IMG/VR virus record: IMGVR_UViG_3300020442_004040
Span: 1-25,429 of that record
From: a virus
Length of the DNA stretch: 25,429 nt
Reading direction: 5' to 3' (one strand)
Shown here: piece by piece, positions 11,342-25,429 of the stretch
Position numbering within the stretch: position 1 is the first letter of the stretch
Layout: each line of letters starts with the position of its first letter
Notes under the pieces: model-generated
What the model was told of the DNA's origin: nothing
Seen by the model: the letters and a program-made list of their open reading frames with translations, nothing else
Database searches by the model: none
Program-made: the position numbers and the translations under genes

Positions 11342-11370
11342 TTGACTTTTATCAGTGCTTGTTATATAAT
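11342..11370 (+). promoter_or_regulatory. Near-consensus sigma70-type promoter of the + strand accessory operon
   Basis: TTGACT (11342-11347; one mismatch) and TATAAT (11365-11370; exact) are separated by 17 bases. The ATG at 11390 follows 19 nt after the -10 box, with AGGAG at 11379-11383. It sits in the 59-nt gap between the last structural gene and the accessory operon and would drive the genes from 11390 to 17456. I saw no hairpin terminator in this gap. Confidence 0.78.
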
Positions 11371-11389
11371 AGCACTATAGGAGAATCAA

Positions 11390-11734
11390 ATGGAATCACA
11401 ATTAGAAAAAGCATTAGAATTTGCCAATTATTCGCAAACTTTGCAAAACCAAAAAAATATTCTTTATAAGCAATACCAAGATAGATGTTATCATTATGTT
11501 GATGGTTGTGCATTTGAAGTTACTCCAGAACTGATTTCATTTTGTAATTTTATGTTGGAAAAGGGCAAGCCATTAGTATTGCTAGATAGTAACAATACTC
11601 CTATGGAAGTTGAAGATGCACAAAAATTTATTGACGATATTGTAGATGTATATGTGCAAAGTACAAATAGATATCTTATAAAATATCAAAACTTCAAAAA
11701 CGATAAGACTGTCGAAGGACTATTAGATCTATGA
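11390..11734 (+). CDS. Unknown protein, first gene of the + strand accessory operon
   Basis: A 114-aa acidic, Tyr/Asn/Gln-rich protein that I do not recognise. A ribosome site (AGGAG, 11379-11383) and a near-consensus promoter directly upstream support it as a real gene. It looks mostly helical: 'QLEKALEFANYSQTLQNQKNIL' near the N-terminus and 'VEDAQKFIDDIVDVYVQSTNRY' near residues 80-101, with a short central 'KPLVLLDSNNTPMEV' strand region. There is no signal peptide, membrane segment or metal-binding motif. Its stop overlaps the next start by 4 nt (ATGA at 11731-11734), linking it translationally to the tandem glycosyltransferase-like pair. A small accessory or adaptor protein is possible, but the function is unknown. 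Confidence 0.72.
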   Translation: MESQLEKALEFANYSQTLQNQKNILYKQYQDRCYHYVDGCAFEVTPELISFCNFMLEKGKPLVLLDSNNTPMEVEDAQKFIDDIVDVYVQSTNRYLIKYQNFKNDKTVEGLLDL

Positions 11735-12570
11735 CCAAAGGTGTCTTGCTTTTTGCCAACAACAACGAACAAGTTGATTATGTAAAACAAGCGATTTTTT
11801 GTGCAAAACGTGTAAAAAAGTATACAAACTTAGATGTAACACTTGTTACGGATAGTTCCGAACAATTAGAACAATATAAATTTTACACAAAATACATAGA
11901 TAAAATTATTACAGTTCCCAAAGCAATTGAAAGCCAACAAAAAAAGTTTTTTGACGGCGAGTCATACATTTATGCCACTTGGAAAAATTTTTCTAGAACT
12001 ACTTGTTATGATATCACTCCTTATGATCAAACACTTGTAATAGATACAGATTTTATTTTAGGCAGTTCATCTATATTAAAATGTTTTGATACTCCGCATG
12101 ATTTTCTTATTAACAGATATGCTTTTGATCTCAATACAACAAGAGACAACACTCCAGAACTCTTAGTAAGCAATACAAGTATTCCTATGTATTGGGCTAC
12201 TGTATTTTATTTTATAAAAACAGAGAGAACAAAAATATTGTTTGACCTTATAGGATTTATAAAAGACAATTGGAGTTTTTACAGCATAATATATAATTTT
12301 ATTTCAAAAAAATACAGGAATGATTTTGCATTTAGTATTGCTATGCACATTCTGGCTAATCATAAAACAATAGATTGGCCTAAAGTTATACCCACACTTT
12401 ATATGATGACAGATAGAGATGTACTTTTGGATATTAATGATACAAGAATGTCTATGTTGTTACAAAAAGACAAAGATTATATACCAGCTAGTATAGATGG
12501 TTCTGACGTTCACATTATGAATAAGTTTAGCTTGGATAGACATATTGATAAGGATTTCGCAAATGAATAA
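11731..12570 (+). CDS. GT-A-type glycosyltransferase-like protein (tandem copy 1)
   Basis: A 279-aa protein whose N-terminus, 'KGVLLFANNNEQVDYVKQAIFCA', begins a Rossmann-like half, followed by 'DVTLVTDSSEQ' (35-45). 'YDQTLVIDTDFIL' carries a D105-x-D107 motif at the end of a hydrophobic strand. This is the usual position of the metal and nucleotide-sugar binding DxD in GT-A glycosyltransferases. It is a diverged tandem copy of the next gene, which shares N-x-x-x-x-DYVKQA near residues 11-21. It starts at the ATGA overlap with the gene before it and overlaps the next by 8 nt. The predicted role is sugar transfer from an activated donor in the cytoplasm; donor and acceptor are unknown. The C-terminal half is Ile/Phe/Tyr-rich without recognisable motifs. 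Confidence 0.72.
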   Translation: MTKGVLLFANNNEQVDYVKQAIFCAKRVKKYTNLDVTLVTDSSEQLEQYKFYTKYIDKIITVPKAIESQQKKFFDGESYIYATWKNFSRTTCYDITPYDQTLVIDTDFILGSSSILKCFDTPHDFLINRYAFDLNTTRDNTPELLVSNTSIPMYWATVFYFIKTERTKILFDLIGFIKDNWSFYSIIYNFISKKYRNDFAFSIAMHILANHKTIDWPKVIPTLYMMTDRDVLLDINDTRMSMLLQKDKDYIPASIDGSDVHIMNKFSLDRHIDKDFANE

Positions 12571-13363
12571 AGGATTTTGTATACTTGCAGAAAATAATTA
12601 CAAAACAGATTATGTAAAACAAGCATATGCTTTAGCCCTTAGTATACATAAGCATAACAAAGAAAATATTAGTATAATTACAGATGACATTGTTCCTGAT
12701 CAGTATAAACATGTATTTGACAATATTATTCCTATTCCTTGGGGCAATCTTGCTAAAAATAGTGATTGGAAGATAGAAAATAGATGGAAATTATATCATT
12801 TATCTCCTTATGAACATACCATTGTTATGGATGCTGATATGCTTATATTAGAAAACATTAAAGAATGGTGGTATAAATGTTTTAATCATGCTATTGCATT
12901 TACAACAGATGTTACTACATATAAAGGCGATATTGTTACAAGTAATTACTATAGGAAAACATTTGTAGCAAATGATTTGCCTAATTTGTACAGTGGACTT
13001 TACTATTTTAAAAAATGTAGTGTGGCAAAAGAATTTTTTACACTTGTAGAAATTATATCTAAGAATTGGCAAATTTTTTACAAACAGTTTGCTCCAAAGA
13101 ACGCACAAACTTGGCAAAGTTTTGACCTTAATTGTGCTATTGCATACAAATTATTAAATTTGCCTAACATAAAGACTCCGTTAAGTTTTATTCATATGAA
13201 ACCACATGTACAACATTGGGATAATGTACCAATAAAATGGACAGATTACTTAGATGTGCATATTGACGAAGAAATATATTTAGGCAATTTTACACAAAAA
13301 GGTGTGTTACATTATGTAGAGGATGAATTTTTGACAGATGAACTGTTGGAGTATTTAAAATAA
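12563..13363 (+). CDS. GT-A-type glycosyltransferase-like protein (tandem copy 2)
   Basis: The best start is the ATG at 12563, preceded by AAGGA and overlapping the upstream stop by 8 nt (ATGAATAA). An in-frame TTG at 12545 would add six residues with no support. This gives 266 aa. 'KGFCILAENNYKTDYVKQAYALA' aligns with copy 1. 'NISIITDD' follows, and 'YEHTIVMDADMLILE' carries D90-A-D92, equivalent to D105-T-D107 of copy 1. Further on, 'LYSGLYYFKKC' and 'WQSFDLNCAIAY' resemble the acceptor-side loops of GT8/GT-A-like enzymes. It is probably a soluble glycosyltransferase acting with its neighbour, perhaps on a different acceptor or donor. The stop overlaps the next start by 1 nt (TAATG). Confidence 0.74.
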   Translation: MNKGFCILAENNYKTDYVKQAYALALSIHKHNKENISIITDDIVPDQYKHVFDNIIPIPWGNLAKNSDWKIENRWKLYHLSPYEHTIVMDADMLILENIKEWWYKCFNHAIAFTTDVTTYKGDIVTSNYYRKTFVANDLPNLYSGLYYFKKCSVAKEFFTLVEIISKNWQIFYKQFAPKNAQTWQSFDLNCAIAYKLLNLPNIKTPLSFIHMKPHVQHWDNVPIKWTDYLDVHIDEEIYLGNFTQKGVLHYVEDEFLTDELLEYLK

Positions 13364-13875
13364 TGTTATATGTAGGTTTTAACAGTGAAGGAGTGATTCA
13401 CAAAATTACAAACGAGCCTGACAATAATTTACAATACTTAGAAATAAGTGCTGAAATGTATTCAAAATTTGCAGAGTCAATTGAAAATATAGATGACTAT
13501 ACGGTTGTGAAAAAAGATGATTATGTTTTAGAAAAAAAAGATAAACAATATAGTGTTACATCAAATGTGTTTACTATTCCTAAAATACATCAATTTAAAC
13601 CTAATAGTATTTTTATTGTGCAAAATCCAAAAAACAAAACGTTTGGCATAAAACATACATTTACTGAAACATTTCCAGCATCTCAAACTTTCAAGCAGTT
13701 TTTTGTTACTAATGTAAATAATGCAAATAAATTATTGTGTACACTTGATTGTAAGTTTGAAGATTTTTTTGAAAACACATATACATTTGACTCTCCTTAC
13801 TTTGATGATTGTAAAATTATTACTAAACCTGACATACAAAGTTATTATCATTTTGTAGGAGAAACAGTTGGCTAA
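13363..13875 (+). CDS. Unknown protein, 170 aa
   Basis: I do not recognise this protein. GGAG (13348-13351) and the TAATG overlap with the preceding gene support the start. The N-terminal 30 residues ('MLYVGFNSEGVIHKITNEP') read as beta hairpins, residues 30-65 are acidic and polar, and the remainder is Phe/Thr/Asn-rich with 'FGIKHTFTETFPASQTFKQFF'. There are no membrane helices, Cys clusters or catalytic signatures. Its last 8 nt overlap the start of the next gene, and its codons 165-167 supply that gene's ribosome site. Position within a run of glycosyltransferase-like genes suggests a helper role in the same pathway, but this is context only. Confidence 0.7.
   Translation: MLYVGFNSEGVIHKITNEPDNNLQYLEISAEMYSKFAESIENIDDYTVVKKDDYVLEKKDKQYSVTSNVFTIPKIHQFKPNSIFIVQNPKNKTFGIKHTFTETFPASQTFKQFFVTNVNNANKLLCTLDCKFEDFFENTYTFDSPYFDDCKIITKPDIQSYYHFVGETVG
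13857..13870 (+). promoter_or_regulatory. Shine-Dalgarno plus TTG start codon for the 13868 gene
   Basis: AGGAG at 13857-13861 lies 6 nt before TTG at 13868-13870, an ideal spacing. No ATG or GTG near this point gives an intact conserved N-terminus; the shared 'VFLSY' strand begins about 11 residues in. The site lies inside the upstream gene. Confidence 0.72.
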
Positions 13876-14752
13876 CATTAAAGTTTTAGATTGCGATATT
13901 GTTTTTCTTTCATATGATGAACCTAATGCAGAAAAAAATTATGCAGATCTACTGACAAAAGTTCCTTATGCAAAGCGAGTACATGGTGTAGAAGGAAGTG
14001 ATGCGGCACACAAAGCCTGTGCAGATATATCAGAAACCAAACACTTTGTAACTGTAGATGGGGATACTGTAATTGATTCTAACTTTTTATCTGTAGTTTT
14101 AGATCTAGATGAATTAGGTGTAGACGATGACTACCAGTTTAGTTGGTGTGGTAACATTGATGTAAATGGACTAAAATACGGAAACGGAAGTTTAAAAATG
14201 TGGACCAAGGATTTTGTTAAAAACATGCGTACACATGAAAATACAGACGGATCAGACGATACACAGATAGAGTTTTGTTATTTTGACAACTACTATCAAC
14301 TTAATGAAAACTATTCTACGAGTATTATAAGTTCGACACCGCATCAGGCTTGGAGAGCAGGTTTTAGAGAAGGTGTTAAGATGTCTTTAAACAGGGGTGC
14401 AAAGGTTGAGGATATTTCAAAAGACACATGGTGGCAAAATTATAATAGACTACTTGTTTGGTTAAACGTTGGTGCAGATGTTTATAACGGACTATACACT
14501 ATTATGGGAGCGAGAGATGGTTGCCAAAAAATACTAGCTACCGACTGGGACCATTCTGTAACAAGAGATTTTAAATGGCTTAATGAATATTGGGATAAAA
14601 TTAAACATCATTCTGTAGAAGAAAAAATTGCCGAGTATGGCGAAATATTACAAGAACAAGGATTACCTATAAGTAAAGTTGCATTAGATGCGGAACAAAG
14701 TAAATTCTTTAAAACTGTATATGATCAACCTGTGAGAAGAATAAAAAGATGA
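13868..14752 (+). CDS. DGD-motif glycosyltransferase-like protein (paralog A)
   Basis: A 294-aa protein with a TTG start placed by an ideal AGGAG site. The N-terminal half reads 'DCDIVFLSYDEPNAEKNYADLL', then 'PYAKRVHGVEGSDAAHKACA', then 'HFVTVDGDTVID' with D64-G-D66. This strand-loop-acidic layout is that of GT-A/GT2-like nucleotide-diphospho-sugar transferases. Later comes 'WCGNIDVNGLKYGNGSLKMW', then 'HQAWRAGFREGVKMSLNRG', both also present in the gene at 16151. The two paralogs flank a radical SAM gene. It overlaps the previous gene by 8 nt and the next by 4 nt (ATGA). The predicted role is transfer or recognition of a sugar; substrate unknown. The 'WRAxFREGxK' block is not one I can tie to a known function. 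Confidence 0.68.
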   Translation: MANIKVLDCDIVFLSYDEPNAEKNYADLLTKVPYAKRVHGVEGSDAAHKACADISETKHFVTVDGDTVIDSNFLSVVLDLDELGVDDDYQFSWCGNIDVNGLKYGNGSLKMWTKDFVKNMRTHENTDGSDDTQIEFCYFDNYYQLNENYSTSIISSTPHQAWRAGFREGVKMSLNRGAKVEDISKDTWWQNYNRLLVWLNVGADVYNGLYTIMGARDGCQKILATDWDHSVTRDFKWLNEYWDKIKHHSVEEKIAEYGEILQEQGLPISKVALDAEQSKFFKTVYDQPVRRIKR

Positions 14753-16158
14753 AAAAAACTAGGAAGAGTTTACCAACTGGATTTGATCCACATGATTCGA
14801 ACAATATGCAAGAATTAAAAAACACGCTGGATTTAAAAGGTCCTGGATTTTGTCTTGCTAAATGGACCCAAGTAACCACTCATCTTGGAAGCGGAATTAC
14901 ACATAGTTGTCATCATGTTGGTGCCCACAAAATTAAACTTAATGAAATAGAAAAAGATCCTGGAGCATTACACAACACCGAATTTAAAAAAGAACGTAGA
15001 CGAGAAATGCTTAACGGTGAACGTCCTGTCGAATGTGATTATTGTTGGCGTATTGAGGATAACAGCGATCATTTTAGTGATAGAGTAACTAAAAGCATAT
15101 CATCTTGGAGTTATCCTTATTTGAATGATATTATTAATACAGATGGAACTGAAAATATATATCCTAAATATGTTGAAGTAAGTTTTAGCAATGTATGTAA
15201 TTTTAAATGTGCATATTGCGGACCAGCGTTTAGTAGTAAATGGACCGAAGAAGTAAAAGAGAAGGGTACATATGAATTTACAGATTATAAGGGCAACAAA
15301 AGAGAATTTGGATTTATTGATCCAAATGAGGTACAGTATTTAGAAAGAGAGCATAATCCCTATATAGAAGCTTTTTGGAAATGGTTTCCAGAAGCAGTCA
15401 AACACATGCATGTATTTAGAATTACTGGCGGAGAACCATTACTAAGCAAGCATACAATGACAGTAATAGATTACTTACTTGAAAATCCACAACCTAATCT
15501 TGAATTTGCAATCAATACAAATGCATGTCCTCCTGATAAAATTTGGAAAGAGTTTATTAAAAAAATTAACAAACTTAATAAACAAAAAGCAATAAAAAAT
15601 TTAACACTATATACAAGTTCCGAATCACATGATAAACAAAATGACTATACAAGATACGGAATGAACTACAATTTATGGCTTAAAAATATTAAAAGTATTG
15701 TTTTACATACTCCAAACGTAAAATTAAGTATTATGTGTGCAGTAAATTTGTTAAGTGTAGAGTCTCTTTATAAACTAATACATGATATAAATGTACTTAG
15801 AGAAAATATACACAGGCATAAATTACTTGAAAAAGATATAACTATGGATTTTGCATATGTACGCAATCCTAAATTTCTAGATATAAGACTAGCTCCACGA
15901 GAATTATTAGATGAATGTTTTAATAGAGCAATAGATATTGTACCTGATTCTAGACCAATTGAAAGAAAAAAGTTGAGAAGGATTTATGATAGTGTTGTGC
16001 ATCTTCAAGATATGGCAGACGAAAAAGAATTAGAACTTACTAGATATAATTTTATGGAATTCATATATGAGTACGACAAAAGAAAACAAACTAATTTTAA
16101 TGAAACATTTCCATTATTGTCTAAACATGCAAATGGATGGATTTTTGTAAATGTTTGA
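14749..16158 (+). CDS. Radical SAM protein with N-terminal auxiliary Cys cluster ('twitch'-type)
   Basis: A 469-aa radical SAM enzyme. The canonical CX3CX2C is C150-C154-C157 in 'SNVCNFKCAYCGP', followed by the SAM-binding 'RITGGEPLL' (GGEP at 227-230) and 'FAINTNAC'. Ahead of the core, C35, C54, C96 and C99 ('CHHVGAHK' to 'CDYCWRIED', with a 'RREMLNGERPVECDYC' block between) form a likely second Fe-S site, an arrangement resembling a SPASM/twitch domain placed N-terminal. Radical SAM enzymes cleave SAM to a 5'-deoxyadenosyl radical; the substrate (sugar, peptide or other) cannot be read here. The gene is coupled by ATGA to its left neighbour and by an 8-nt overlap to its right, and is flanked by the two DGD-motif paralogs. 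Confidence 0.88.
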   Translation: MKKTRKSLPTGFDPHDSNNMQELKNTLDLKGPGFCLAKWTQVTTHLGSGITHSCHHVGAHKIKLNEIEKDPGALHNTEFKKERRREMLNGERPVECDYCWRIEDNSDHFSDRVTKSISSWSYPYLNDIINTDGTENIYPKYVEVSFSNVCNFKCAYCGPAFSSKWTEEVKEKGTYEFTDYKGNKREFGFIDPNEVQYLEREHNPYIEAFWKWFPEAVKHMHVFRITGGEPLLSKHTMTVIDYLLENPQPNLEFAINTNACPPDKIWKEFIKKINKLNKQKAIKNLTLYTSSESHDKQNDYTRYGMNYNLWLKNIKSIVLHTPNVKLSIMCAVNLLSVESLYKLIHDINVLRENIHRHKLLEKDITMDFAYVRNPKFLDIRLAPRELLDECFNRAIDIVPDSRPIERKKLRRIYDSVVHLQDMADEKELELTRYNFMEFIYEYDKRKQTNFNETFPLLSKHANGWIFVNV

Positions 16159-16813
16159 TGTGGTTTTTATAAGTTATAAAGAAAAAGACTGTGAAAAAAG
16201 ATTTGTAAAGTTAAAACAACAAATACCTTTCATAAAACGTGTTCACGGAGTAAAAGGTATACATGCCGCACATAAACAAGCCGCAAAAATTAGCGATACA
16301 AGTATGTTCTATGTTATAGACGGAGATGCAGATCTTATAGATACATTTAAATTTGATGAGAATCTTTGTGTATCCTATGATACTGTATACGTATGGAAAA
16401 GTATTAACCCCATAAATAATTTAGTGTATGGATACGGAGGATTAAAATTACTTCCAAAAAAACTTGTATTAGATATTGATGCATCTAAACCAGATATGAC
16501 AACTAGTATAAGCAAAAATTTTATACCTATGGATATTATAAGTAACATTACAGCATTTAATACAGATCCGTTTAACACTTGGCGTAGTGCATTTAGAGAA
16601 TGTGCAAAATTAGCAAGTAAAACCATTGAAAGGCAGGACACAGATGAAACAGATGAACGACTTAAAACTTGGACAACCGTGGGACACGATAGACCATTTG
16701 GCAAATACGCTTTGGCAGGCGCTACCGCTGGTATGGAGTTTGGCCTTTCTAGGGGGTCTGATCTTCGGTTAATAAACGATTTTGATTGGTTAAAGGAAAA
16801 ATTTAATGGGTAG
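16151..16813 (+). CDS. DGD-motif glycosyltransferase-like protein (paralog B)
   Basis: A 220-aa shorter relative of the 13868 protein. 'FDVVFISYKEKDCEKRF' matches its 'IVFLSYDEPNAEKNY'. 'PFIKRVHGVKGIHAAHKQAA' matches 'PYAKRVHGVEGSDAAHKACA'. 'FYVIDGDADLID' (D57-G-D59) matches 'FVTVDGDTVID'. The downstream 'WKSINPINNLVYGYGGLKLL' and 'FNTWRSAFRECAKLA' blocks are also shared. It lacks some of the C-terminal part of paralog A. It is probably a glycosyltransferase-like or sugar-binding enzyme of the same pathway, with the pair arising by duplication and now separated by the radical SAM gene. It starts with an 8-nt overlap (ATGTTTGA) and ends with another (ATGGGTAG). Confidence 0.68.
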   Translation: MFDVVFISYKEKDCEKRFVKLKQQIPFIKRVHGVKGIHAAHKQAAKISDTSMFYVIDGDADLIDTFKFDENLCVSYDTVYVWKSINPINNLVYGYGGLKLLPKKLVLDIDASKPDMTTSISKNFIPMDIISNITAFNTDPFNTWRSAFRECAKLASKTIERQDTDETDERLKTWTTVGHDRPFGKYALAGATAGMEFGLSRGSDLRLINDFDWLKEKFNG

Positions 16814-17456
16814 ATTACTTGCATTTGGATGTAGCCATACTTATGGCGAAGGATTATCTGATTGTGCAAACTACAAAATTCAAAAACAAGAGCGTAGAGC
16901 AGATAGAGCTAGTCAATATGCTTGGCCTGCAATACTAGGAAAAAAATTAGATAAACAGGTCATAAATTTTGGCCGGCCAGGCTGCTCTAATCGATTTATA
17001 GCAAACTCTATTTTAAATACTGATATAAAACAAGACGATCTTGTAATTGTATTATGGACTGCTGGACATAATAGAACAACAATTTTTAAATCTTTCGATA
17101 TGGACGATATTAGCCTAGTTCTTCCTACTAAAACAGATAAAATATCGAAAGTTTATTACAAATATATTCATCAGTACTATAATAGCTTTTTAGAATCAAT
17201 AGAATACATAAATTTAGCAAACTCAATGTGTAGTGTACCAATATTTAATTTTAAGGCTATAGATGTAAGAGATAAAACAACATGGCCGGATACCTTACCA
17301 GATATTGAATTTGACTATCCTAAATGGAATAAAGTTAATCTTATTGAACAATCTTTATATCATATAGATTTTGCGACCGATGATCATCATCCTGGACCAG
17401 AATCTCAAAAATTAATAGCTAGTGACATACTAGAGAGAATTAAACTTGCCCACTAA
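16806..17456 (+). CDS. SGNH/GDSL-type hydrolase-like protein
   Basis: A 216-aa protein. AAAGGA at 16792-16797 precedes the ATG by 8 nt. SGNH blocks appear in order. Block I is 'LLAFGCSHTYGEGL' with Ser10 as nucleophile. Block II is 'NFGRPGCSN' with Gly56/59. Block III is 'LWTAGHNR' (84-90), a variant of GxND. Block V is 'DDHHPGPES' with Asp192 and His195. Together these complete the Ser-Asp-His set. The family includes acyl esterases and O-acetylhydrolases acting on glycans; a role in de-acylating or acyl-tailoring the product of this cluster is an inference. No signal peptide is present, so it should act in the cytoplasm or on the virion. It is the last gene of the + strand operon and overlaps the opposing methyltransferase gene by 27 nt. 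Confidence 0.78.
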   Translation: MGRLLAFGCSHTYGEGLSDCANYKIQKQERRADRASQYAWPAILGKKLDKQVINFGRPGCSNRFIANSILNTDIKQDDLVIVLWTAGHNRTTIFKSFDMDDISLVLPTKTDKISKVYYKYIHQYYNSFLESIEYINLANSMCSVPIFNFKAIDVRDKTTWPDTLPDIEFDYPKWNKVNLIEQSLYHIDFATDDHHPGPESQKLIASDILERIKLAH

Positions 17457-18278
17457 CATATATCGTGTACCTCTTGTATCTTTAATTTCTTCTCTAAATA
17501 CAACTTTCACACCTTCGGGCAATTGATCTTCAAATTCATCTATACTATTGACACAGTTGATATGTCCTTCGATACCAAACATATTGTTTGACTGTAATGC
17601 AAATATCATACCTGGCCACCAATATTTCCATTCTTTCATAGGGCTCATATGTTCGCATGAAGTGTTAATTATTACATTAATTTTTTCATAGTCTTTTGCT
17701 ATACTTTTTTCAAATACATCTCCAACAGCCCATTTTACATTTTCTAAATTAGGAAAAAACATATTTTTACCTATTTTTATTGCTTGTTCATCAATGTCAA
17801 TAGGCCAAATTTCATTTACCTTATCGTGTAATAAAGGTAAAAGTATACTTGCGTACCAGCTACCTAGTATAGCAACATTACTATCTTCAGTTATATACTG
17901 GTCTAAATTTTTTATAAGTGTTTTTTTAGCAAGAACTTGGTTATTACTAAAAGAATCACAAATTGTTTTTTGCAATTCAGGTAAGTGTTTTATTGCCTTC
18001 AGGACATTAAATAACAGAGTAGTATCTATATCTTTGTTAATAAGTTCTATTGTAAGTGTATAGAAGTTTACAAAATCATTGTCATTAAGAGATCTAATAA
18101 TACCATCGTAATTTTTTTGCAAATTTGATAATGATTGTGCTTTGTCAATTAATATACTTGGAGTTTTTTCAGGATTATTTTTTATGACAGTAAGTATATC
18201 ATACAAACTAGTAATATCATATGCTTTTTTTATTCCTACAATATTTTTTATGTAGTCAAAGTTTTCTCTATCAATCAT
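17430..18278 (-). CDS. Class I SAM-dependent methyltransferase-like protein
   Basis: A 282-aa protein. The first 125 residues are a helical N-terminal region without recognised motifs. The second half carries a class I methyltransferase fold: motif I 'VAILGSWYASILLPLL' (135-150, with GxW in place of the usual GxGxG), an acidic strand end 'IWPIDIDEQAI' with Asp161/163, 'VKWAVGDVFE', then 'INVIINTSCEHM' (201-211) in the motif IV position, followed by 'WKYWWPGMIFALQ'. It is likely to methylate an O or N atom of the cluster's product or a macromolecule; target unknown. It is last in the - strand operon. Its start overlaps the carbamoyltransferase stop by 8 nt (ATGATTGA), indicating co-translation. 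The loss of a glycine-rich loop makes exact SAM use less certain. Confidence 0.72.
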   Translation of the reverse strand: MIDRENFDYIKNIVGIKKAYDITSLYDILTVIKNNPEKTPSILIDKAQSLSNLQKNYDGIIRSLNDNDFVNFYTLTIELINKDIDTTLLFNVLKAIKHLPELQKTICDSFSNNQVLAKKTLIKNLDQYITEDSNVAILGSWYASILLPLLHDKVNEIWPIDIDEQAIKIGKNMFFPNLENVKWAVGDVFEKSIAKDYEKINVIINTSCEHMSPMKEWKYWWPGMIFALQSNNMFGIEGHINCVNSIDEFEDQLPEGVKVVFREEIKDTRGTRYMLVGKFNSL

Positions 18279-19785
18279 ACTGTTTACTCACTATATAATT
18301 GTCAATTACAAGCATAGTCAATGCATTTTTTTTGAAAGTGTTTACCGCATCTTGAGGTGTTTCTACAATAGGTTCTTGACAATTGAAACTTGTATTAAGA
18401 AGCATTGGAATGCCTGTTAGGTCATAAAATGCTTTAATCACATCATAGTATTTAGGATTGAAATCTTTTGTTACAGTTTGTATTCTTGCAGTGCCGTCAA
18501 CATGTGTAACACCGGGAATAGCATCGCTTTTTACAGGCATAATCCTACTCATGTAAGGACTAGGTTGGTTTGTATCAAAATAATCCTGATAGTGTTCTTC
18601 TAATACACTAGGAGCAAAAGGTCTAAAATCTTCCCTAAGTTTGATTGTATTGTTTATTGTATTTTTAATGTAATCAGCTCTTGGGTCTGCAAGGATACTT
18701 CTATTGCCTAACGCTCTGTTACCGCTTTCGCTACAACCTTGATACCAACCTACTATACCACCATTATCGATAGTAATTGCAACTTGCCTACAGATTTCGT
18801 CAAATGATTCTTTTTTCCAATTCAAGCCTTCAAATATAGTTTCATCCACTTCGTGCTTTTTTCCAGCATATACAGTTGGAATATGTATATTATTATTTTG
18901 TGTGTAATCGGCATGCATGTACGTACCGAGTGCTTGTCCTTCATCACCAGCGGCCGGCGGAACATGTACATTGGTATAATGTTTAGTAAACTCTTCGTTC
19001 ATATATCCATTGTAGGCAACACCACCTGCAATACAAATATTTTCACATGTTTTGAGAGGCAACACATATTTTTTAATTAGATCAATTGTGTATTTTTGTA
19101 ATGTAAATGCAATATCTTCTCTAGCAGTCTTTTCTAACACATCTCGACTGCCTTTTGGTAATTTATGATTAGGATCTTTTAGATATCTATGAACCATCTC
19201 ATACACATCAAAACTAAATTTTCCATAGCCAGCCAGTCCCATAGTTTTTCCTGCACCTAAATAACCAAAACCTAAATCTTGGCTTAGCCTATTCCATAAG
19301 CCTCCTATACTTACTTTATCACTTATGTTATGTATAACACCATCTTTGTCTACGAATACACAATTAAACTGCCAACCTCTTCCATCAATAGCTAAAATAT
19401 CGCTTTGTTTGTATCCACTACTAAGATATGCGTAAGCCGCATGACTTTGATGATGATCAATATAATAATACGTGTCTGTTTTATAATATTCCCATAATGA
19501 TCGAGGATGAAAATTTAGAAAATCTGTGTCTGGCAAAGTTTCTTGCAAATAATCCAAAACAAATTCTTGCCCTAAATTACTTACAGTAAATGCAAAAAGT
19601 TTATCTTTATCAACATATGCTGGTTCTATGTAATCTTTGTAAAATATTCTACTAGGTGTAGGATCGTGCGGATTTTCTCTGTTAAGATTGTGTTTTTCTC
19701 TAGTATACCTTTCAGCAAGGTAATGTACTTTGCCGTCATACGTATTGTGATCGTGAATGTTTATAGCTACTGAAAAAATATTCAT
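18271..19785 (-). CDS. NodU/CmcH-family O-carbamoyltransferase
   Basis: A 504-aa protein. The two family domains are readable. The N-terminal Kae1-like part has 'YIDHHQSHAAYAYLSSGY' (metal ligands around His111, His112, His115), 'ILAIDGRGW', 'LGAGKTMGLAGYG' (177-188) and 'ICIAGGVAYNGYMNEEF' (250-266) with 'PPAAGDEGQALG'. The C-terminal YrdC-like part has 'GWYQGCSESGNRALGNRSI' with 'LADPR', 'KLREDFRPFAPSVLEE' and 'GIPMLLNTSFN'. Family members use carbamoyl phosphate and ATP to carbamoylate a hydroxyl on a sugar or natural product. The segment usually written GPRALG reads GNRALG here. At 504 aa it is somewhat shorter than many relatives (about 550-600 aa). It lies 1 nt after the radical SAM gene and overlaps the methyltransferase by 8 nt. 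Acceptor unknown. Confidence 0.9.
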   Translation of the reverse strand: MNIFSVAINIHDHNTYDGKVHYLAERYTREKHNLNRENPHDPTPSRIFYKDYIEPAYVDKDKLFAFTVSNLGQEFVLDYLQETLPDTDFLNFHPRSLWEYYKTDTYYYIDHHQSHAAYAYLSSGYKQSDILAIDGRGWQFNCVFVDKDGVIHNISDKVSIGGLWNRLSQDLGFGYLGAGKTMGLAGYGKFSFDVYEMVHRYLKDPNHKLPKGSRDVLEKTAREDIAFTLQKYTIDLIKKYVLPLKTCENICIAGGVAYNGYMNEEFTKHYTNVHVPPAAGDEGQALGTYMHADYTQNNNIHIPTVYAGKKHEVDETIFEGLNWKKESFDEICRQVAITIDNGGIVGWYQGCSESGNRALGNRSILADPRADYIKNTINNTIKLREDFRPFAPSVLEEHYQDYFDTNQPSPYMSRIMPVKSDAIPGVTHVDGTARIQTVTKDFNPKYYDVIKAFYDLTGIPMLLNTSFNCQEPIVETPQDAVNTFKKNALTMLVIDNYIVSKQYD

Positions 19786-19786
19786 T

Positions 19787-20641
19787 TTAGTCCATTATAT
19801 CTAAAAGATTCATTTCGTTTGATAATATACCAACAATTTCGTCTCTACGCATTTTAGGCCTTTTGGGTATTATATCCATACAACGTGTACAATATTCTTC
19901 AAATTCAAAAAGTTCATAATTCATCATTTTTTCTATATTTTCTTTTGTTACATCAAACTGTCTAGATCCATTAATTACTTTACGACTACAGTGCCGTATT
20001 TTTTGTATTTCAAAATCAAATACTGGAACCTGTGGAAACTTTGCACACACACGTCTATCAAGTTCTGGTGCTTGTACAAGTTCATGATCACTAAAGAAAT
20101 CAGGTGAACGTGAATTGTATTCCTTAAATTCTGTGTTCTTATGATCTATATGACTAAGGTCATGTTTATCTCGGTAATTAAAATATCCAGGTGTTTCGAT
20201 AATCAAATTGTAATTATTTAAATCGTTAGGTTCAAACCATTCGTAATTTCCTAACTTTTCAATTCTATCTTCGTAAAAATCAAGTATTAAATGTTCGATG
20301 TAAATAATTTCTGGATCTTCAAGAACGTGCGGATAAAATTTTCTCACCAAACTGTTGGATAGCACTTGGATGACAAGATTTTCGTGTTTTTTTATTTCGG
20401 CTATGACTTCATCTAAATTTTTTATTAGTCCAGGTTCGCCTCCTAACAAACAAATGCGTGTTTTGTATGGACTAAGTCCGTCAAGTATTGTTCTCAGAAA
20501 ATCCATGTCAACATGCAAATTACGCATTTCTAAAGTCCATGCGGTGCAGTAGTGGCAACTCTTGTTACAACTTTTACTAAGGTAAAAGTCAACAGTTCTG
20601 TATTCTGACCCTTTAAGATCTTCTAAAGTTTTAATTGACAT
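19787..20641 (-). CDS. Radical SAM protein with C-terminal Cys cluster
   Basis: A 284-aa protein. CX3CX2C is C25-C29-C32 in 'LSKSCNKSCHYCTAW', very near the N-terminus. 'RICLLGGEPGLI' follows (GGEP at 67-70), then 'IQVLSNSLV'. Four C-terminal cysteines (C199, C218, C251, C254; 'RVCAKFP', 'RHCSRKV', 'EEYCTRCMD') suggest a truncated SPASM-like auxiliary Fe-S site. This domain order is the reverse of the other two radical SAM proteins, whose extra Cys lie before the core. It is the first gene behind the internal promoter at 20667-20695, with a weak AAAGAG ribosome site, and is followed after 1 nt by the carbamoyltransferase. The substrate is unknown; coupling suggests it modifies the same intermediate that is carbamoylated. 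Confidence 0.86.
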   Translation of the reverse strand: MSIKTLEDLKGSEYRTVDFYLSKSCNKSCHYCTAWTLEMRNLHVDMDFLRTILDGLSPYKTRICLLGGEPGLIKNLDEVIAEIKKHENLVIQVLSNSLVRKFYPHVLEDPEIIYIEHLILDFYEDRIEKLGNYEWFEPNDLNNYNLIIETPGYFNYRDKHDLSHIDHKNTEFKEYNSRSPDFFSDHELVQAPELDRRVCAKFPQVPVFDFEIQKIRHCSRKVINGSRQFDVTKENIEKMMNYELFEFEEYCTRCMDIIPKRPKMRRDEIVGILSNEMNLLDIMD

Positions 20642-20666: not shown

Positions 20667-20695
20667 ATTATACATTAATTACTTCAGTTAGTCAA
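20667..20695 (-). promoter_or_regulatory. Near-consensus sigma70-type promoter inside the - strand operon
   Basis: Read on the - strand, TTGACT (20690-20695; one mismatch) and TATAAT (20667-20672; exact) are 17 bases apart. The start codon of the radical SAM gene (20641) lies 25 nt beyond the -10 box. The -35 box overlaps the end of the upstream nitroreductase-like gene. It would drive the radical SAM, carbamoyltransferase and methyltransferase genes as a separate unit. Confidence 0.78.
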
Positions 20696-21406
20696 GCTCA
20701 ATCCGTTTAAAAAACATTGCATATTTTTTTTAAAACTATAAAATTTCCATTTTTCATCTAAGGCTCCGGTCCTATAGTCTTCTGGAACTTCAGCGTTAGT
20801 TGTTTCTGCATGTAAAAGTCTATCTATGCTAGGATTGTCTACCCCTACTCCAACAAGTAGTTTTGATTTACTTTTAGTATTTAAAATTTCTGAAACCGGA
20901 TCAGGATTAAATGCAGAACAAATACCAGTTTTGTATCCTAATAGGCCAGCGGTTAAAATTAATTCTCCTACAGAAATACCTATAGAATAGTTTTTTTGTT
21001 CTTCTAGAACTATCTTACTAAAATCGTCATCTGCTTTTGCTTTGTGATGGGTTGCTCCTCTAGCATTTCCCTCTGCTTCAGTATATACAAACAAAACATC
21101 AGCAAGTATTTGTGAATTTTTTAGTGCTTGATTCTCGTATAGCCATTCTTCAGTTTTACCTTCTGCTAATGCTTTTTTTGCGCCTAACGTAAATTTTTTT
21201 GTGTTATCATAAATTTGCCTAATAATTTTTGGCTCTGTATATACGTGTACAGAAAAATGTGTTTCGTTTTGTTTTGAAGGAGAATTCGTAGCGGCATAAA
21301 TTAATAAATTTAAATGTTCTTTGCTTACATGCTTAGTTAAATCATAATTCCGTTGGGCTCGTTGTGAGGAATCTATTGCACTTTTAATTGCATCTAAATC
21401 TATCAT
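20684..21406 (-). CDS. Nitroreductase-family flavoprotein-like protein (tandem copy 2)
   Basis: A 240-aa protein. The N-terminus has 'SSQRAQRNYDLTKHVSKE' (Arg16, Arg19, Tyr21), then 'LLIYAATNSPSKQN' (35-47), the usual FMN-phosphate region and loop of nitroreductase-fold proteins. 'YSIGISVGELILTAGLLGYKTGIC' (140-163) is the conserved helix and turn, and 'LLVGVGVDNP' (183-191) precedes the C-terminal flavin-contacting stretch. The family reduces or dehydrogenates small substrates with FMN and NAD(P)H, and includes natural-product azoline oxidases and flavin-destroying enzymes. It overlaps the other nitroreductase-like gene by 4 nt (ATGA), suggesting equal synthesis and perhaps a heterodimer. 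The stop lies within 10 nt of the internal promoter -35 box. Substrate unknown. Confidence 0.74.
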   Translation of the reverse strand: MIDLDAIKSAIDSSQRAQRNYDLTKHVSKEHLNLLIYAATNSPSKQNETHFSVHVYTEPKIIRQIYDNTKKFTLGAKKALAEGKTEEWLYENQALKNSQILADVLFVYTEAEGNARGATHHKAKADDDFSKIVLEEQKNYSIGISVGELILTAGLLGYKTGICSAFNPDPVSEILNTKSKSKLLVGVGVDNPSIDRLLHAETTNAEVPEDYRTGALDEKWKFYSFKKNMQCFLNGLSLTN

Positions 21407-22095
21407 TTTAAAAACTTTACAATATCTTCAAATGCAGGCTTAGTATCTTCTAATTCAATTCCTTTTACGGTATCTTGTCTATACACTAAACCTTTACCAG
21501 CAGTCATTATCAGCATTACAGTAGGATCTCTGCCGTCAATCAGACCAGAGATACGCCATTTATCAGAAGGAGTTGGAAAACAAAGCGTATGTGATATATC
21601 TATGCCTTCAGATAAACATATGCTTGCAAAGTTACCTGCAAACATACCTACTTCTATTGCACTGTTTTTAAAAAAAGACATAGGATTCTTAGAATCTGTC
21701 TGCTCAAACGTTCTGCCATTGTCTATAGCTTGTTGTTGCCAAGGATTAAATTTATTAGCTATCCTCTGCGAAAAAATAATTATATAAGGTGCACTTTTTA
21801 TATTATGAAATTGAGGTAATGTATTAGTTTTTGTATACCTTTCTTCAAAAAATTCATCTAATGGTTGTTTACTATCGAGTGATCTCTCATGAGCCAAACA
21901 AAGATCGTATAATATTAATTTCCAATGTTCTTGTTCGGGGCCTAATACTGTGACCCTATATGGCATAAAATTATTTTTGCTTGGAGTAGCTTTCCAAGCA
22001 CGTTCTAGTATATCTACCATTACCTTCTTTTTGATAGGTTTTGTAGTATCATATTCCTTTACATACCTATATGCATTTAGAAATTTATCTATCAT
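21403..22095 (-). CDS. Nitroreductase-family-like protein (tandem copy 1)
   Basis: A 230-aa protein. AAGGAAT (22101-22107 on the - strand) lies 5 nt before the start. 'AYRYVKEYDTTKPI' at the N-terminus and 'AWKATPSKNNFMPYRVTVLG' (33-52) match the family's Arg-rich start and (S/T)PSxxN loop; the neighbour has SPSKQN at the same place. 'AIEVGMFAGNFASICLSEGIDISHTLCFP' occupies the conserved helix position, followed by 'TVMLIMTAGKG'. The fold is likely a nitroreductase-type flavoprotein, but the N-terminal arginine pattern is weaker than in copy 2, so one of the pair may be structural or substrate-binding. It is followed by copy 2 with a 4-nt overlap. Reaction unknown. Confidence 0.68.
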   Translation of the reverse strand: MIDKFLNAYRYVKEYDTTKPIKKKVMVDILERAWKATPSKNNFMPYRVTVLGPEQEHWKLILYDLCLAHERSLDSKQPLDEFFEERYTKTNTLPQFHNIKSAPYIIIFSQRIANKFNPWQQQAIDNGRTFEQTDSKNPMSFFKNSAIEVGMFAGNFASICLSEGIDISHTLCFPTPSDKWRISGLIDGRDPTVMLIMTAGKGLVYRQDTVKGIELEDTKPAFEDIVKFLK

Positions 22096-22105
22096 TTCTT
22101 ATTCC

Positions 22106-22693
22106 TTACGTAGACATATACTGAAATTTAAAATTGTTTTTTTTAAGATCTAATTCTGTAAATCTTACTTTGACATCTATTTTATTCCATAGATTGTTTT
22201 TCTTTACAAATTCATAAACTTCTGCAAATGCTTTTTGACTTCTATCATGGCTACCTATTCCGGGCATCATTACATCATCGCACAAAGGCAAATATAATTG
22301 ACAATAAAAACCTCTGTTTGCAAACTGACTCATAGAAAGATTACTACTATGCAAGACACACCCAGATGTGTTAGTACCGCCAAAAATTACTGTAGTTCGT
22401 TCAGGTTCTAGTTTGAAACCATTTTCTCTCAGTTGTTTTTCAAACATTCTAAATGTCTTATCTTTTTCCGAAAAGTACCATTTCCATCCTCTATCGTATG
22501 TTGCTTGGTGATGTAGATCTTTGCTTGTTTGGCTGTATATCAGTGTAGAGACAATTATATTTTTGTCTCTACATACATAAGAATCATTAACTATATCTTG
22601 AAAAGCATATGTTCTATATTTGTGTGCAAAATCGTCAGATAACCCACGATGACCATCCATGTCCATTAAAAAAATTAATGTATTTTTTTCCAT
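22106..22693 (-). CDS. Isochorismatase-like cysteine hydrolase-fold protein
   Basis: A 195-aa protein. Three catalytic features of the isochorismatase-like family appear in order. Asp11 lies in 'TLIFLMDMDGHRGLSDDF'. A lysine at 77 or 79 lies in 'FSEKDKTFRMFEKQLRENG'. Cys112 lies in 'VIFGGTNTSGCVLHSSNLS', followed by 'FANRGFYCQLYLPLCDD', the usual RG-strand-Asp segment. Family members hydrolyse vinyl ethers, amides (nicotinamidase) or carbamoyl groups through a Cys-Asp-Lys triad. Length fits. The start directly follows the radical SAM stop (TAAATG), with AGGAT 9-10 nt upstream. It may hydrolyse an amide or carbamoyl intermediate of this pathway; that is inference. The Asp region departs from the common DMQxDF form. 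Confidence 0.66.
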   Translation of the reverse strand: MEKNTLIFLMDMDGHRGLSDDFAHKYRTYAFQDIVNDSYVCRDKNIIVSTLIYSQTSKDLHHQATYDRGWKWYFSEKDKTFRMFEKQLRENGFKLEPERTTVIFGGTNTSGCVLHSSNLSMSQFANRGFYCQLYLPLCDDVMMPGIGSHDRSQKAFAEVYEFVKKNNLWNKIDVKVRFTELDLKKNNFKFQYMST

Positions 22694-24169
22694 TTATAGT
22701 ATATCCTGATAAGAACGCTCTTCTTGCTTTTTTGCTTTTCTATCCCAAGATTCATATAATCTCTTTTTTTGTTTAGTAAGAGGTCTTGGAATATAATATT
22801 CTCTCAATTCAGGAAATACGTCAAATAGGTGGCTTTCCCATTTTGTGCCTTCATAAAATTTATCAGCTGTAAGTAGATATTCAAAAATATCTTGTATGTC
22901 TATATCCGGATCTCGCGGCATTTCTAAGGCCGCGATAATGTCTGGCCAATCTTGATATTTTGGTATCAGCTTATCTTTTAATTTTTTTGGAAGATTGTTA
23001 GGACGTAGATGTTTTGGAGTATCAACATGAGCCCAATTAAGCTGGTTTATGATAGGATTTTCTTTACACCAGTCTACAACTTCATAGAATCTTAACACAC
23101 TAAGGAATGAAACTAGACCGTTAAAGTCTATTACTACATTAGGATATTTTTTACAATACTCTATATTTTCTAAAACTTTATTCCAAACAGTCCTTCTACG
23201 CATATATTCAATCACTGGACCAATTCCATCTACTGATGCAACAATAGTTACACGTTGAAAGTGCGGAATATATTTAAAAAGGTTATGTTTTCCTGCTTTG
23301 GTCTCTGTCAAATTTGTTTGATACTTAATTCTTATTTTATCAGCGTGTCCAGTTTCAATTAAAGCATCAAGCATTTCATAATGCTTTTTCATAATTAAAG
23401 GTTCACCTCCAATTATTTTTATACTTTTGATGTATTGTGCGATTTCAATAATTTGTTCAGTTATGCCTTTTGTTTTATCTTTCATTACGTGATCAAAGTA
23501 TTTTTTTCGATCTTCATTTATTTGTCCAAAGATTTTATCACTGTATACACCTTTATCTGCTACATTTAATCTTGTTGTAGAGTTTGCATGTTGACACATA
23601 TAACAATCTAAATTACATTCAGAACCATAAATTTTTAATTGGACTTCGTAAATTCTTTCTTTCTTCATTTCAAATTTACCAGTGTCTTTATATCTAGTGA
23701 CTTGCCGTTCTATCTTGTCCCAAAATTTTGGATCATTTGTATGTATTTTCATACAATTGGTTCTTCTTGAACGCCCATATCTTTCTTCATCGGACCTACA
23801 TCTTTTGCAATACTTGTCTACACTTTGTAGGTTAGATCCTGGAGTAGTCATCTCTTTACGTAGACTATTCATATATTCACTGTTTTCCATCCATTCTTTT
23901 AATGGTACTTCTTCAACGTCAACTCCGGACGGCGCACCAAAACAACATGCACCGTATTGGCCATCTATTTCTGAATAAATTTGTGTGAATGGAATAGTGC
24001 AAAAATAAATGTCTTTGTTTTTTGCCTGTTGTACTATAGATCCTTCTTTTTCTGCTATTTCAGACCCTTCTTCACTCATCTTTTGCCACCAGGCTTCTGT
24101 ATTGACATTTCCAGGACTAGACTCGTCACCTGGTCCACCTTTTGTTAAATGTTCTGGTAAGTCTTTCAT
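22694..24169 (-). CDS. Radical SAM protein with N-terminal Cys pairs
   Basis: The best start is ATG at 24169 (491 aa), which forms an ATGA overlap with the stop of the QueC-like gene and has an AGAGGAAAAAG site just upstream. An ATG at 24193 would add eight basic residues and use no clear site. The CX3CX2C is C185-C189-C192 in 'YGSECNLDCYMCQHANS', with 'IKIIGGEPLIM' (GGEP 254-257) and 'VTIVASVDGIG' following. Before the core, C57, C75/C76, C121 and C124 ('GACCFGAP', 'KYCKRCRSD') are candidate ligands for a second cluster, as in the 14749 protein, though the two are clearly diverged. The charged C-terminal tail is Lys/Arg/Glu-rich. Co-translation with the PP-loop enzyme suggests consecutive steps. 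Substrate unknown. Confidence 0.85.
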   Translation of the reverse strand: MKDLPEHLTKGGPGDESSPGNVNTEAWWQKMSEEGSEIAEKEGSIVQQAKNKDIYFCTIPFTQIYSEIDGQYGACCFGAPSGVDVEEVPLKEWMENSEYMNSLRKEMTTPGSNLQSVDKYCKRCRSDEERYGRSRRTNCMKIHTNDPKFWDKIERQVTRYKDTGKFEMKKERIYEVQLKIYGSECNLDCYMCQHANSTTRLNVADKGVYSDKIFGQINEDRKKYFDHVMKDKTKGITEQIIEIAQYIKSIKIIGGEPLIMKKHYEMLDALIETGHADKIRIKYQTNLTETKAGKHNLFKYIPHFQRVTIVASVDGIGPVIEYMRRRTVWNKVLENIEYCKKYPNVVIDFNGLVSFLSVLRFYEVVDWCKENPIINQLNWAHVDTPKHLRPNNLPKKLKDKLIPKYQDWPDIIAALEMPRDPDIDIQDIFEYLLTADKFYEGTKWESHLFDVFPELREYYIPRPLTKQKKRLYESWDRKAKKQEERSYQDIL

Positions 24170-24942
24170 GCTACTTCTTTTTCCTCTTCCCATTCCAAAT
24201 CAAATGCCCACTTTCTTTCATGACACCAAAAGCATTGATGACATTCCACAGTAAAGTTGCGTGTTTGCCTTGCAGTACCAACACAGGACCTTGTAATTGG
24301 AAATAGTGTTTCCATTAAATTGTTTTCTTTGTATACACCTGCAACAAATTTTTTGTCTACATTAATGTATGCTTGATATATATTTAACCATTTATCTTTT
24401 TGATACGTTCTGTATTCTTGAATTGTAGGAAGTTCTTTGTCTCTTCTTCGTTCTGCTTTTTCAAAAAATCCTAACTGTTTCATATCTTCTGTAGGAGGAT
24501 TTCTAGTCATTCCGTCTAATCTAACAGCACCAGGATGTTTTTTCATTAAGTTCCAGTTAATTGTATCTACTTGTATAATTTTAGAAACTTGTGTTCTACG
24601 CATACCTGTGAACTGTTTATATTTTTTTATTACTTTGTCCACTTGTTTATTAGTAACAAAATCTTCTGTTCTATCGTTGAAGTCAAATATTTGTATATCT
24701 TTAATATTATTATTTGGAAATTCTTTTTTAATAAAATCTACAATCATAACAGCCGCATCAGCATCTTTGGGAGCATTTAAGTCCCTACAAGTTACTGGTA
24801 TAATTTCTATTTCTGGAAAATGTTTTGTTACAAGATATAAAAGTGATGCAGAGTCGGCACCTCCTGATAATGATATTGTTGCTGTTTCTGGTTTCTCGTC
24901 AGCAAATAGGTCTATTGTTTGTCCACCGTGTGTAATTTTCAT
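24166..24942 (-). CDS. QueC-like PP-loop ATPase with C-terminal zinc-type Cys cluster
   Basis: A 258-aa protein. 'ATISLSGGADSASLLYLV' (SGGxDS at 26-31) is the PP-loop of N-type ATP pyrophosphatases, which activate a carboxyl, carbonyl or related group by adenylation. The C-terminus reads 'PITRSCVG' (C220), then 'VECHQCFWCHERKWAF' (C234, C237, C240), matching the C-xn-CxxCxxC zinc site and following Arg of the QueC (7-cyano-7-deazaguanine synthase) family. It is longer than typical QueC. No QueD, QueE or QueF partner is visible, so a different product is likely; QueC-like proteins also occur in Qat and CBASS-associated defence loci. AGGAG (24949-24953) overlaps the stop of the upstream aminotransferase. 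Sugar-amidating PP-loop enzymes are an alternative. Confidence 0.78.
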   Translation of the reverse strand: MKITHGGQTIDLFADEKPETATISLSGGADSASLLYLVTKHFPEIEIIPVTCRDLNAPKDADAAVMIVDFIKKEFPNNNIKDIQIFDFNDRTEDFVTNKQVDKVIKKYKQFTGMRRTQVSKIIQVDTINWNLMKKHPGAVRLDGMTRNPPTEDMKQLGFFEKAERRRDKELPTIQEYRTYQKDKWLNIYQAYINVDKKFVAGVYKENNLMETLFPITRSCVGTARQTRNFTVECHQCFWCHERKWAFDLEWEEEKEVA

Positions 24943-24948
24943 ACTGTG

Positions 24949-24953
24949 CTCCT
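24949..24953 (-). promoter_or_regulatory. Shine-Dalgarno of the QueC-like gene overlapping the upstream stop codon
   Basis: AGGAG read on the - strand lies 6 nt before the ATG at 24942 and includes two bases of the TAG stop of the aminotransferase gene, so ribosomes finishing that gene would clear the site for the next one. Confidence 0.65.
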
Positions 24954-25429
24954 ATGTATCAGTTGTACTTATTGTATCTTTTACTGTATCTATAATAGTA
25001 TTGATTTCTTCGTCAGTCAACCACGCATGTATTGGCAAGGATAACACAGTGTCAGATGCAAGATTTGATTGTATACATTCATCTTTACGCATATTCATAT
25101 TATTATACATACTGTTTTTTGATAAAGGTATCTCATAGTGTATACTCGCTTTTAATGCATTTTTTAAAAGTTTTCGTGTATCTTTGTCTTTAGTACGGAT
25201 TACATATTTGTGGTAATTATGGTTTAATCCGTTACCATTGGTTTGTAGAACTAATGGCAAGTCAGCAAATGCTTTGTCGTATATTTTTGCAATCTCTTGT
25301 CTGCGTAATTTATTTTCTGTATGAAACTTTAAACGCTGTTTGATAATCATTCCGTTGAGTACATACATTCTGCTGTTGTATCCTAGTCTACTGAAATCTT
25401 TGTCTTTACCGTGTCTTCGAATCATTTTT
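24952..25429 (-). CDS. DegT/DnrJ/EryC1-type aminotransferase, C-terminal part (5' end beyond window)
   Basis: Only the C-terminal 158 or so residues are in view. The ATG at 25425 is an internal methionine of 'MIRRHGKDKDFSRLGYNSRM', which matches the DegT-family 'RxHG...GxNxRM' block that follows the PLP-lysine region by about 25 residues. 'VLNGMIIKQRL', 'RRQEIAKIYDKAF', 'HNYHKYVIRTKDKDTRKLL' and 'ALKASIHYEIPLSKN' are the usual conserved steps to the C-terminus. The family transfers an amino group from glutamate to a keto-sugar or keto-cyclitol using PLP, typically in nucleotide-sugar pathways. The PLP lysine itself lies outside the window. It is the first visible gene of the - strand operon and carries a promoter for the following genes inside its 3' end. 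Confidence 0.85.
   Translation of the reverse strand, partial: KMIRRHGKDKDFSRLGYNSRMYVLNGMIIKQRLKFHTENKLRRQEIAKIYDKAFADLPLVLQTNGNGLNHNYHKYVIRTKDKDTRKLLKNALKASIHYEIPLSKNSMYNNMNMRKDECIQSNLASDTVLSLPIHAWLTDEEINTIIDTVKDTISTTDT
24992..25020 (-). promoter_or_regulatory. Possible sigma70-type promoter within the aminotransferase 3' end
   Basis: On the - strand, TTGACT (25015-25020) and TATTAT (24992-24997) are 17 bases apart, one mismatch each. The start codon at 24942 lies about 50 nt beyond the -10 box. Because it lies in coding DNA it could be chance, but spacing and orientation match the other three promoters. Confidence 0.45.

Follow-up and report, generated by a model that had tools for sequence, protein, structure and literature searches.

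A radical SAM and carbamoyltransferase operon with an exchangeable middle in a probable host-recognition island of marine T4-like phages

The host recognition cluster (HRC) of pelagimyophages (Zaragoza-Solas 2020, PMC7029224) combines tail fibres with glycosyltransferases and radical SAM cassettes. Other T4-like phages, too, have been published as exceptionally rich in radical SAM genes, with 12 in an environmental genome (PMC5332604) and 11-12 in the Campylobacter phages CP220 and CPt10 (PMC2853527), where those of CP220 form an interchangeable module. We analysed the complete IMG/VR record IMGVR_UViG_3300020442_004040 (25,429 bases; hereafter the window), in which tail/fibre type genes g1-g6 (2-11330) are followed by two gene arms, g7-g14 on the plus strand and g15-g23 on the minus strand, that together occupy 11390-25428. 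The minus arm belongs to an operon for which we observe, across relatives, recurrent enzyme families, a conserved frame, exchange of genes within a slot and restriction to phages.

This type of locus is already partly described, as the pelagimyophage HRC with its radical SAM cassettes. Both are hypervariable islands of T4-like marine phages that carry tail fibres, GT8 glycosyltransferases and radical SAM cassettes, and tail-fibre and glycosyltransferase genes stand together in the window as they do in the HRC. The HRC lies between VrlC and gp14; the contig of the window ends before such a position can be read, and VrlC adjoins the operon in the phage Mosig EXVC030M. PMC7029224 mentions the radical SAM cassettes briefly, whereas the DegT...g17-carbamoyltransferase frame, its slot and the finding that the two arms can be separated come from the present analysis. 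Likewise, PMC5332604 and PMC2853527 describe no DegT-carbamoyltransferase frame, and in CP220 it is an amidinotransferase with which the clusters are paired. The literature searched, which left out most subscription papers, yielded no description of the DegT-slot-g17-carbamoyltransferase frame. An earlier note on this DNA, made from its letters, knew of no described system with this exact set of genes; such a statement is too strong, since the HRC is published and Mosig carries the core operon.

Mosig is the only isolate with g17 among 50,697 phage records. Its core operon (Mosig_00082-00093), located between VrlC/fibre genes and a second arm, encodes in the same order a GT-B glycosyltransferase, the radical SAM protein cl4, the twitch protein cl5, an SGNH hydrolase, DegT, g17, the carbamoyltransferase and the methyltransferase, and its slot between DegT and g17 is empty. 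It differs from the window in its glycosyltransferases (GT24/68/31) and in its second arm (2-oxoglutarate (2OG) enzyme, desaturase and aminotransferase). A cousin set in phage HTVC008M consists of a glycosyltransferase, a methyltransferase, a carbamoyltransferase, a PP-loop gene and a UDP-glucose dehydrogenase, the last three side by side. The 'NAD synthetase' beside that carbamoyltransferase (NC_020484.1, 16454-17227; locus L152) matches the profile of the window PP-loop protein g22 at 9.9e-6 and is possibly misannotated. Aminoglycoside tailoring of the BtrS/BtrN/TobZ type offers a chemical analogy, with DegT amination, a twitch-type radical SAM enzyme and O-carbamoylation of amino sugars or cyclitols, and the window profiles match 2-deoxy-scyllo-inosose aminotransferase, TobZ and, weakly (E 0.03), BtrN. 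However, no 2-deoxy-scyllo-inosose synthase was recognised and the genes are phage-encoded, so the likeness is one of analogy, not membership.

Frame genes were counted in 30 non-redundant g17 loci whose flanks reach at least 8 kb upstream and 4 kb downstream. Its order is GT-B glycosyltransferase, split twitch and radical SAM proteins, DegT aminotransferase, slot, radical SAM protein g17, carbamoyltransferase and methyltransferase. The carbamoyltransferase is present in all 30 loci and directly follows g17 in 28, while DegT is found in 29, the methyltransferase in 27, cl4 in 26, GT-B in 25 and cl5 in 24. Nearly all frame genes lie on one strand, which the methyltransferase g15 shares in 27/30 loci. 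In L095 and L096, DegT and the slot face the opposite way to an inverted g17-g16-g15 unit, and both parts remain at the locus. L013 has two successive carbamoyltransferase open reading frames (ORFs) after g17, reflecting a duplication or a frameshift.

The slot between DegT and g17 holds 0-7 genes, and 27 distinct contents were found among 48 non-redundant loci. Nitroreductase, PP-loop, radical SAM/twitch or g20 types account for 122 of the 132 slot genes, and the content is identical in 4 of 62 pairs whose g17 proteins are at least 85% identical. Four different slots are seen in the window and the three relatives nearest to it (g17 83-91% identical): PP-loop, radical SAM, g20 and two nitroreductases in the window; four nitroreductases in L074; PP-loop, radical SAM, nitroreductase, g20 and radical SAM in L075; and PP-loop, radical SAM, nitroreductase, g20, PP-loop and nitroreductase in L076. 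Other T4-like phages carry slot cassettes in the absence of the frame. One example is the radical SAM-nitroreductase-g20-radical SAM series of L036, which occupies 6581-13372 of a 170-kb T4-like record and is flanked by virion genes (gp23-like, tail-tube-like) on one side and by a helicase-like gene on the other. The minus arm is itself composite, combining a frame with exchangeable cassettes that are found in other places too. The possibility that relatives carry the genes singly and scattered, which the earlier note had named as a refutation, applies to the tailoring genes and the plus arm, which are separable, and not to the frame genes, which are strongly clustered.

The minus-arm operon is restricted to phages. 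In a pattern-based scan of 84,980 species genomes, g17 was matched three times, each time on a phage contig within a metagenome-assembled genome (MAG), and a bacterial origin or counterpart of g17 was rejected on this basis, with the limit that a pattern scan may miss weak homologues. Contigs L233, L234 and L235, binned into MAGs of Pelagibacter, Rhodobiaceae and Gammaproteobacteria, resemble phage DNA and carry the core operon, and L234 and L235 also contain fibre/VrlC homologues. The T4-type Gp23 capsid family is present in 8 of 19 long records that carry relatives of window genes, Mosig among them, and the synteny of g1-g6 with such records suggests that the window comes from a T4-like phage. 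An Fe-S carrier was considered as a general partner of the operon and rejected, being found in 3 of the 19 records.

The frame genes of the window all lie on the minus strand. The carbamoyltransferase g16 (18271..19785), predicted as NodU-type in the earlier note, has both carbamoyltransferase domains (Pfam 4e-64 and 1e-17) and an HHxxH motif, here HHQSH. Its best PDB matches are small-molecule O-carbamoyltransferases of the NovN, GdmN and TobZ types, and enzymes of this kind belong to aminocoumarin, ansamycin and aminoglycoside pathways. The short radical SAM protein g17 (19787..20641) exceeds the Pfam cut-off, falls below that of NF033640 and has four additional invariant cysteines (C199, C218, C251 and C254). 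A similar C-terminal cysteine pattern occurs in BtrN, the twitch-type dehydrogenase that partners a DegT enzyme on the way to butirosin, although the sequence match to BtrN is weak (E 0.03). The SAM-methyltransferase-like Rossmann protein g15 (17430..18278) matches MJ0882/spermidine-synthase profiles at E 0.001-0.01, so that the methyltransferase proposed earlier is a weaker assignment (Rossmann profile matches at about 0.001-0.004). The DegT/DnrJ/EryC1 aminotransferase g23 (24952..25428; Pfam 2.2e-20) had been named correctly as to family, and the window holds only its C-terminal part, because the contig ends in this gene and cuts the operon. The pyridoxal phosphate (PLP)-binding lysine K182, which is invariant in 16 full-length DegT relatives, lies in the missing half. 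The DegT profile matches both sugar and cyclitol aminotransferases, namely QdtB, WbpE, perosamine and 2-deoxy-scyllo-inosose aminotransferases.

To see beyond the contig end, we clustered the ORFs of 150 relative loci. In relatives, the operon extends upstream of DegT into cl7 (about 285 aa), cl4 and cl5 (about 115 aa). The radical SAM core cl4 and the cysteine-rich cl5 probably correspond to two separately encoded parts of what is fused in the twitch-radical SAM proteins g12 and g21, and cl5 is kept as the split twitch part because it matches the N-terminal twitch region of NF033640 (positions 4-81) and has a sub-threshold SPASM match; hhalign places it at the g21 N-terminus, in the right place and weakly (15.6%). 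No sequence match was found for cl7. Its structural model (pLDDT 93) aligns with PimA (Z 15.3, 247 residues, 3.7 A), followed by BshA, HepE, SenB and T4 alpha-glucosyltransferase (T4 AGT), and predicts a GT-B glycosyltransferase at the operon head.

The slot genes of the window, also on the minus strand, comprise the two nitroreductases expected earlier, g18 (20684..21406; Pfam 8.4e-12) and g19 (21403..22095; 5.2e-7), both over the cut-off, together with g20, g21 and g22. The cysteine-hydrolase fold proposed earlier for g20 (22106..22693) has no Pfam match and is supported by its predicted structure: the AlphaFold model (pLDDT 87) has VIA-align matches of the isochorismatase-type fold (best Z 13.0, 157 residues, 3.3 A), C112 is invariant in the alignment and the Asp column of the Asp-Lys-Cys triad varies. 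The N-terminal-twitch radical SAM protein g21 (22694..24193) scores 293.6 bits against NF033640 (cut-off 170) and exceeds the radical SAM Pfam cut-off, as do g12 and g17, confirming the count of three radical SAM proteins. The PP-loop ATP-dependent enzyme g22 (24166..24942) has an SGGxDS motif invariant in 17 sequences, a C-terminal cysteine motif (C220...C234xxC237xxC240) and profile matches to ThiI, NAD synthetase and GMP synthetase (8.5e-4 and weaker). Its designation as QueC-like holds for the PP-loop and not for a full-length QueC match or queuosine partners: the QueC Pfam match is exactly at the gathering score and covers 32 residues, no QueD/QueF match is present in the window, and a queuosine/7-deazaguanine role was rejected.

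Radical SAM genes vary in number around the operon. Up to 8 surround a single g17 locus, and the record of L207 has 14 NF033640 matches. Several N_Twi_rSAM paralogues are arrayed on the opposite strand after the core in L104 (15007-20369) and L137, while the more distant g17 loci (L141, L149 and L139 records) have few or none above the cut-off. A B12-binding radical SAM protein lies near the operon in several loci, for example at 14114-15568 of L079.

The plus arm is a tail-fibre-linked block and a unit distinct from the minus arm. It is preceded by the tail-fibre type genes g4-g6 (6965..11330, plus strand), of which g5 (8913-10412, plus) has PHROG tail fibre and Pfam Peptidase_G2 matches and a Peptidase_G2/IMC-like C-terminus. 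All its genes are on the plus strand, beginning with g7 (11390..11734; 114 aa), which has no Pfam/PHROG match. The paralogues g8 (11731..12570) and g9 (12545..13363; likely start ATG 12566) share a profile that matches PDB glycogenin (GT8) at E about 2e-5 and has an invariant DxD motif; both features support their assignment as GT8/glycogenin-like glycosyltransferases. Then follow g10 (13363..13875), with no family match; g11 (13868..14752), with an invariant DxD-like D64/D66; the N-terminal-twitch radical SAM protein g12 (14749..16158), with CxxxCxxC at residue 150 and 304.8 bits against NF033640 (cut-off 170); g13 (16151..16813), a paralogue of g11 by alignment; and the SGNH/GDSL-type hydrolase g14 (16806..17456). 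The earlier note counted g8, g9, g11 and g13 as glycosyltransferase-like, which stands for the first two. No Pfam or PDB match was found for g11 and g13, and a GT8 identity was rejected for lack of profile similarity to g8/g9. The SGNH assignment of g14 is weaker than first proposed, with the GxS and DxxH motifs of the type present (GCS and DDHH) and a Lipase_GDSL Pfam match (6.5e-4) below the cut-off. L075 has three tandem SGNH hydrolase paralogues (13302-15345) versus one in the window.

The two arms converge with a 27-nt overlap at 17430-17456. Relatives such as L074, L075, L076 and L153 show the same convergence, and the layout of the window record is therefore no assembly artefact. All seven plus-arm junctions overlap, by 1-8 nt; of the eight minus-arm junctions, three overlap, four are spaced by 0-10 nt and one has a 42-nt gap that adjoins a promoter-like site. 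This near-consensus TTGACT-N17-TATAAT site (20667..20695, minus) lies 5' of g17, and another of the same form (11342..11370, plus) lies 5' of g7. Matches at 11-12 of 12 positions occur upstream in 8/13 distinct g7 relatives versus 0/13 shuffles, and in 10/59 distinct g17 relatives versus 1/59 shuffles. A perfect TTGACA-N17-TATAAT is found at 10437-10465, 5' of g6 in the fibre region. The T4-type late promoter TATAAATA was rejected, with a single site in the window, below expectation.

Gene g11 matches at least 599 viral contigs. Among the best 80 of these at least 599 loci, g5 is found in 61, g6 in 57, g7 in 49, g8 in 73, g9 in 75, g13 in 67 and g10 in 3, while g16 or g17 is found in 5. These loci were picked by g11 similarity and are biased to kin of the window, so the separation of the arms is, if anything, understated. 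The earlier note read the near-universal coupling of neighbouring genes as an argument for one pathway. The tight packing is real, but because the arms converge and have separate distributions, with separate promoter-like sites, packing does not show one pathway, and the two arms do not appear to form one.

We lean towards the view that the window is part of a host-recognition island of a marine T4-like phage, in which an operon with an exchangeable middle tailors a sugar-like decoration. The accessory cluster beside the tail-fibre genes does hold radical SAM, amination, carbamoylation and glycosyl-transfer chemistry, as first proposed. A keto-sugar or cyclitol would be produced by dehydrogenation, either by nucleoside diphosphate (NDP)-sugar dehydrogenases of phage or host or by the radical SAM enzymes themselves, in a BtrN-like manner as in butirosin; DegT would aminate it; and the slot enzymes (nitroreductases, PP-loop, twitch radical SAM and the amidohydrolase-fold g20) would alter the product differently in each phage. 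Then g16 would O-carbamoylate and g15 methylate the product, and its attachment would fall to the GT-B enzyme that heads the operon and/or to plus-arm glycosyltransferases. A UDP-glucose dehydrogenase gene is found in 14 loci and epimerase and GT8 genes in Mosig. The dehydrogenase and epimerase of these neighbouring phages point to nucleotide sugars, and together with the GT-B and GT8 transferases they strengthen the sugar reading. Plus-arm or Mosig-type GT24/68/31 genes are also carried by 45 of 53 non-redundant g17 loci, a link to the fibres. As acceptor, a protein of the fibre or baseplate seems a better candidate than host lipopolysaccharide (LPS), since the genes are syntenic with fibre genes and no export machinery was recognised. 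Mycobacteriophages are known to encode the glycosylation of their own virion proteins (cited in PMC12363180).

Several points weigh against this reading. Peptides and other small molecules are also among the substrates of twitch/SPASM radical SAM, nitroreductase and PP-loop enzymes. The window contains no nucleotidyltransferase or 4,6-dehydratase, so the sugar precursor would need to come from elsewhere, and glycosyltransferase activity of g11/g13 is unproven, its sole basis being the DxD-like motif. The order of the reactions, the acceptor and the view that the substrate is a sugar are what we infer, from relatives gathered by similarity to window proteins and viewed within 10-kb flanks, all of them environmental contigs except one isolate.

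A serious rival, though an unlikely one, is that the product of the same operon alters the host surface, namely the LPS O-chain, and thereby excludes other phages, a role that has been proposed for pelagimyophage glycosyltransferases. PMC7029224 infers O-chain modification from GT8 abundance, and g8/g9 are of GT8 type. However, neither the window nor the conserved neighbours examined showed a recognisable flippase, polymerase or lipid-linked transferase, and the glycosyltransferase genes are located in the fibre block. Less probable still is a module for peptide or protein modification, whether akin to ribosomally synthesised and post-translationally modified peptides (RiPPs) or acting on fibre side chains, instead of sugars. 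The multiple twitch/SPASM radical SAM, PP-loop and nitroreductase genes and the 2OG/Asp-Arg-hydroxylase neighbours would fit it, all of these being common in peptide maturation, but the GT-B and DegT frame genes suit sugars or cyclitols better, and no conserved short precursor gene was found among the recurrent families, where ORFs below 60 aa were outside the listing and a very short one could be missed.

That the carbamoyltransferase serves DNA hypermodification, as 5-carbamoyloxymethylcytosine, seems highly improbable. A phage carbamoyltransferase with this activity is published (MetaGPA, PMC8670742), and the GT-B enzymes that cl7 resembles include T4 alpha-glucosyltransferase; yet the operon is located with fibre genes, and the required hydroxymethylase PF00303 (thymidylate-synthase family) is found only in the L139 record and is missing in 18 of 19 records, including a 261-kb record, a 145-kb record and Mosig, all of which carry the operon. 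A co-encoded modification of the 5-hydroxymethylcytosine (5hmC) type was rejected on this count. The least credible alternative takes g17 as viperin-like and the operon as antiviral or superinfection-exclusion nucleotide chemistry, since viperin models give the best NCBIfam and PADLOC matches to g17 (2.3e-7 and 9e-11), but the match is limited to the radical SAM core (residues 16-97) at 30.2 bits against a cut-off of 180, by which a prokaryotic viperin identity was rejected, and g17 has the four extra invariant cysteines and no kinase partner was seen.

A sugar-like decoration of the virion or of the infected cell, varied through the slot, remains our preferred reading. Its more far-reaching form, which we put forward tentatively, is a phage-only combinatorial pathway, in which a fixed amination, radical SAM and carbamoylation frame with a swappable slot yields a lineage-specific glycan or non-sugar small molecule on the tail fibre. 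If this were true, receptor recognition or host evasion would be coupled to small-molecule chemistry. The radical SAM, PP-loop and nitroreductase enzymes gathered here form a concrete, uncharacterised set that would probably share a substrate, and Mosig, as a cultured phage carrying the core operon, makes the system amenable to testing. If the reading is right, abundant ocean phages would vary their chemical decoration by swapping enzyme cassettes in a fixed slot, in parallel with the bacterial diversification of O-antigens and tailored antibiotics.

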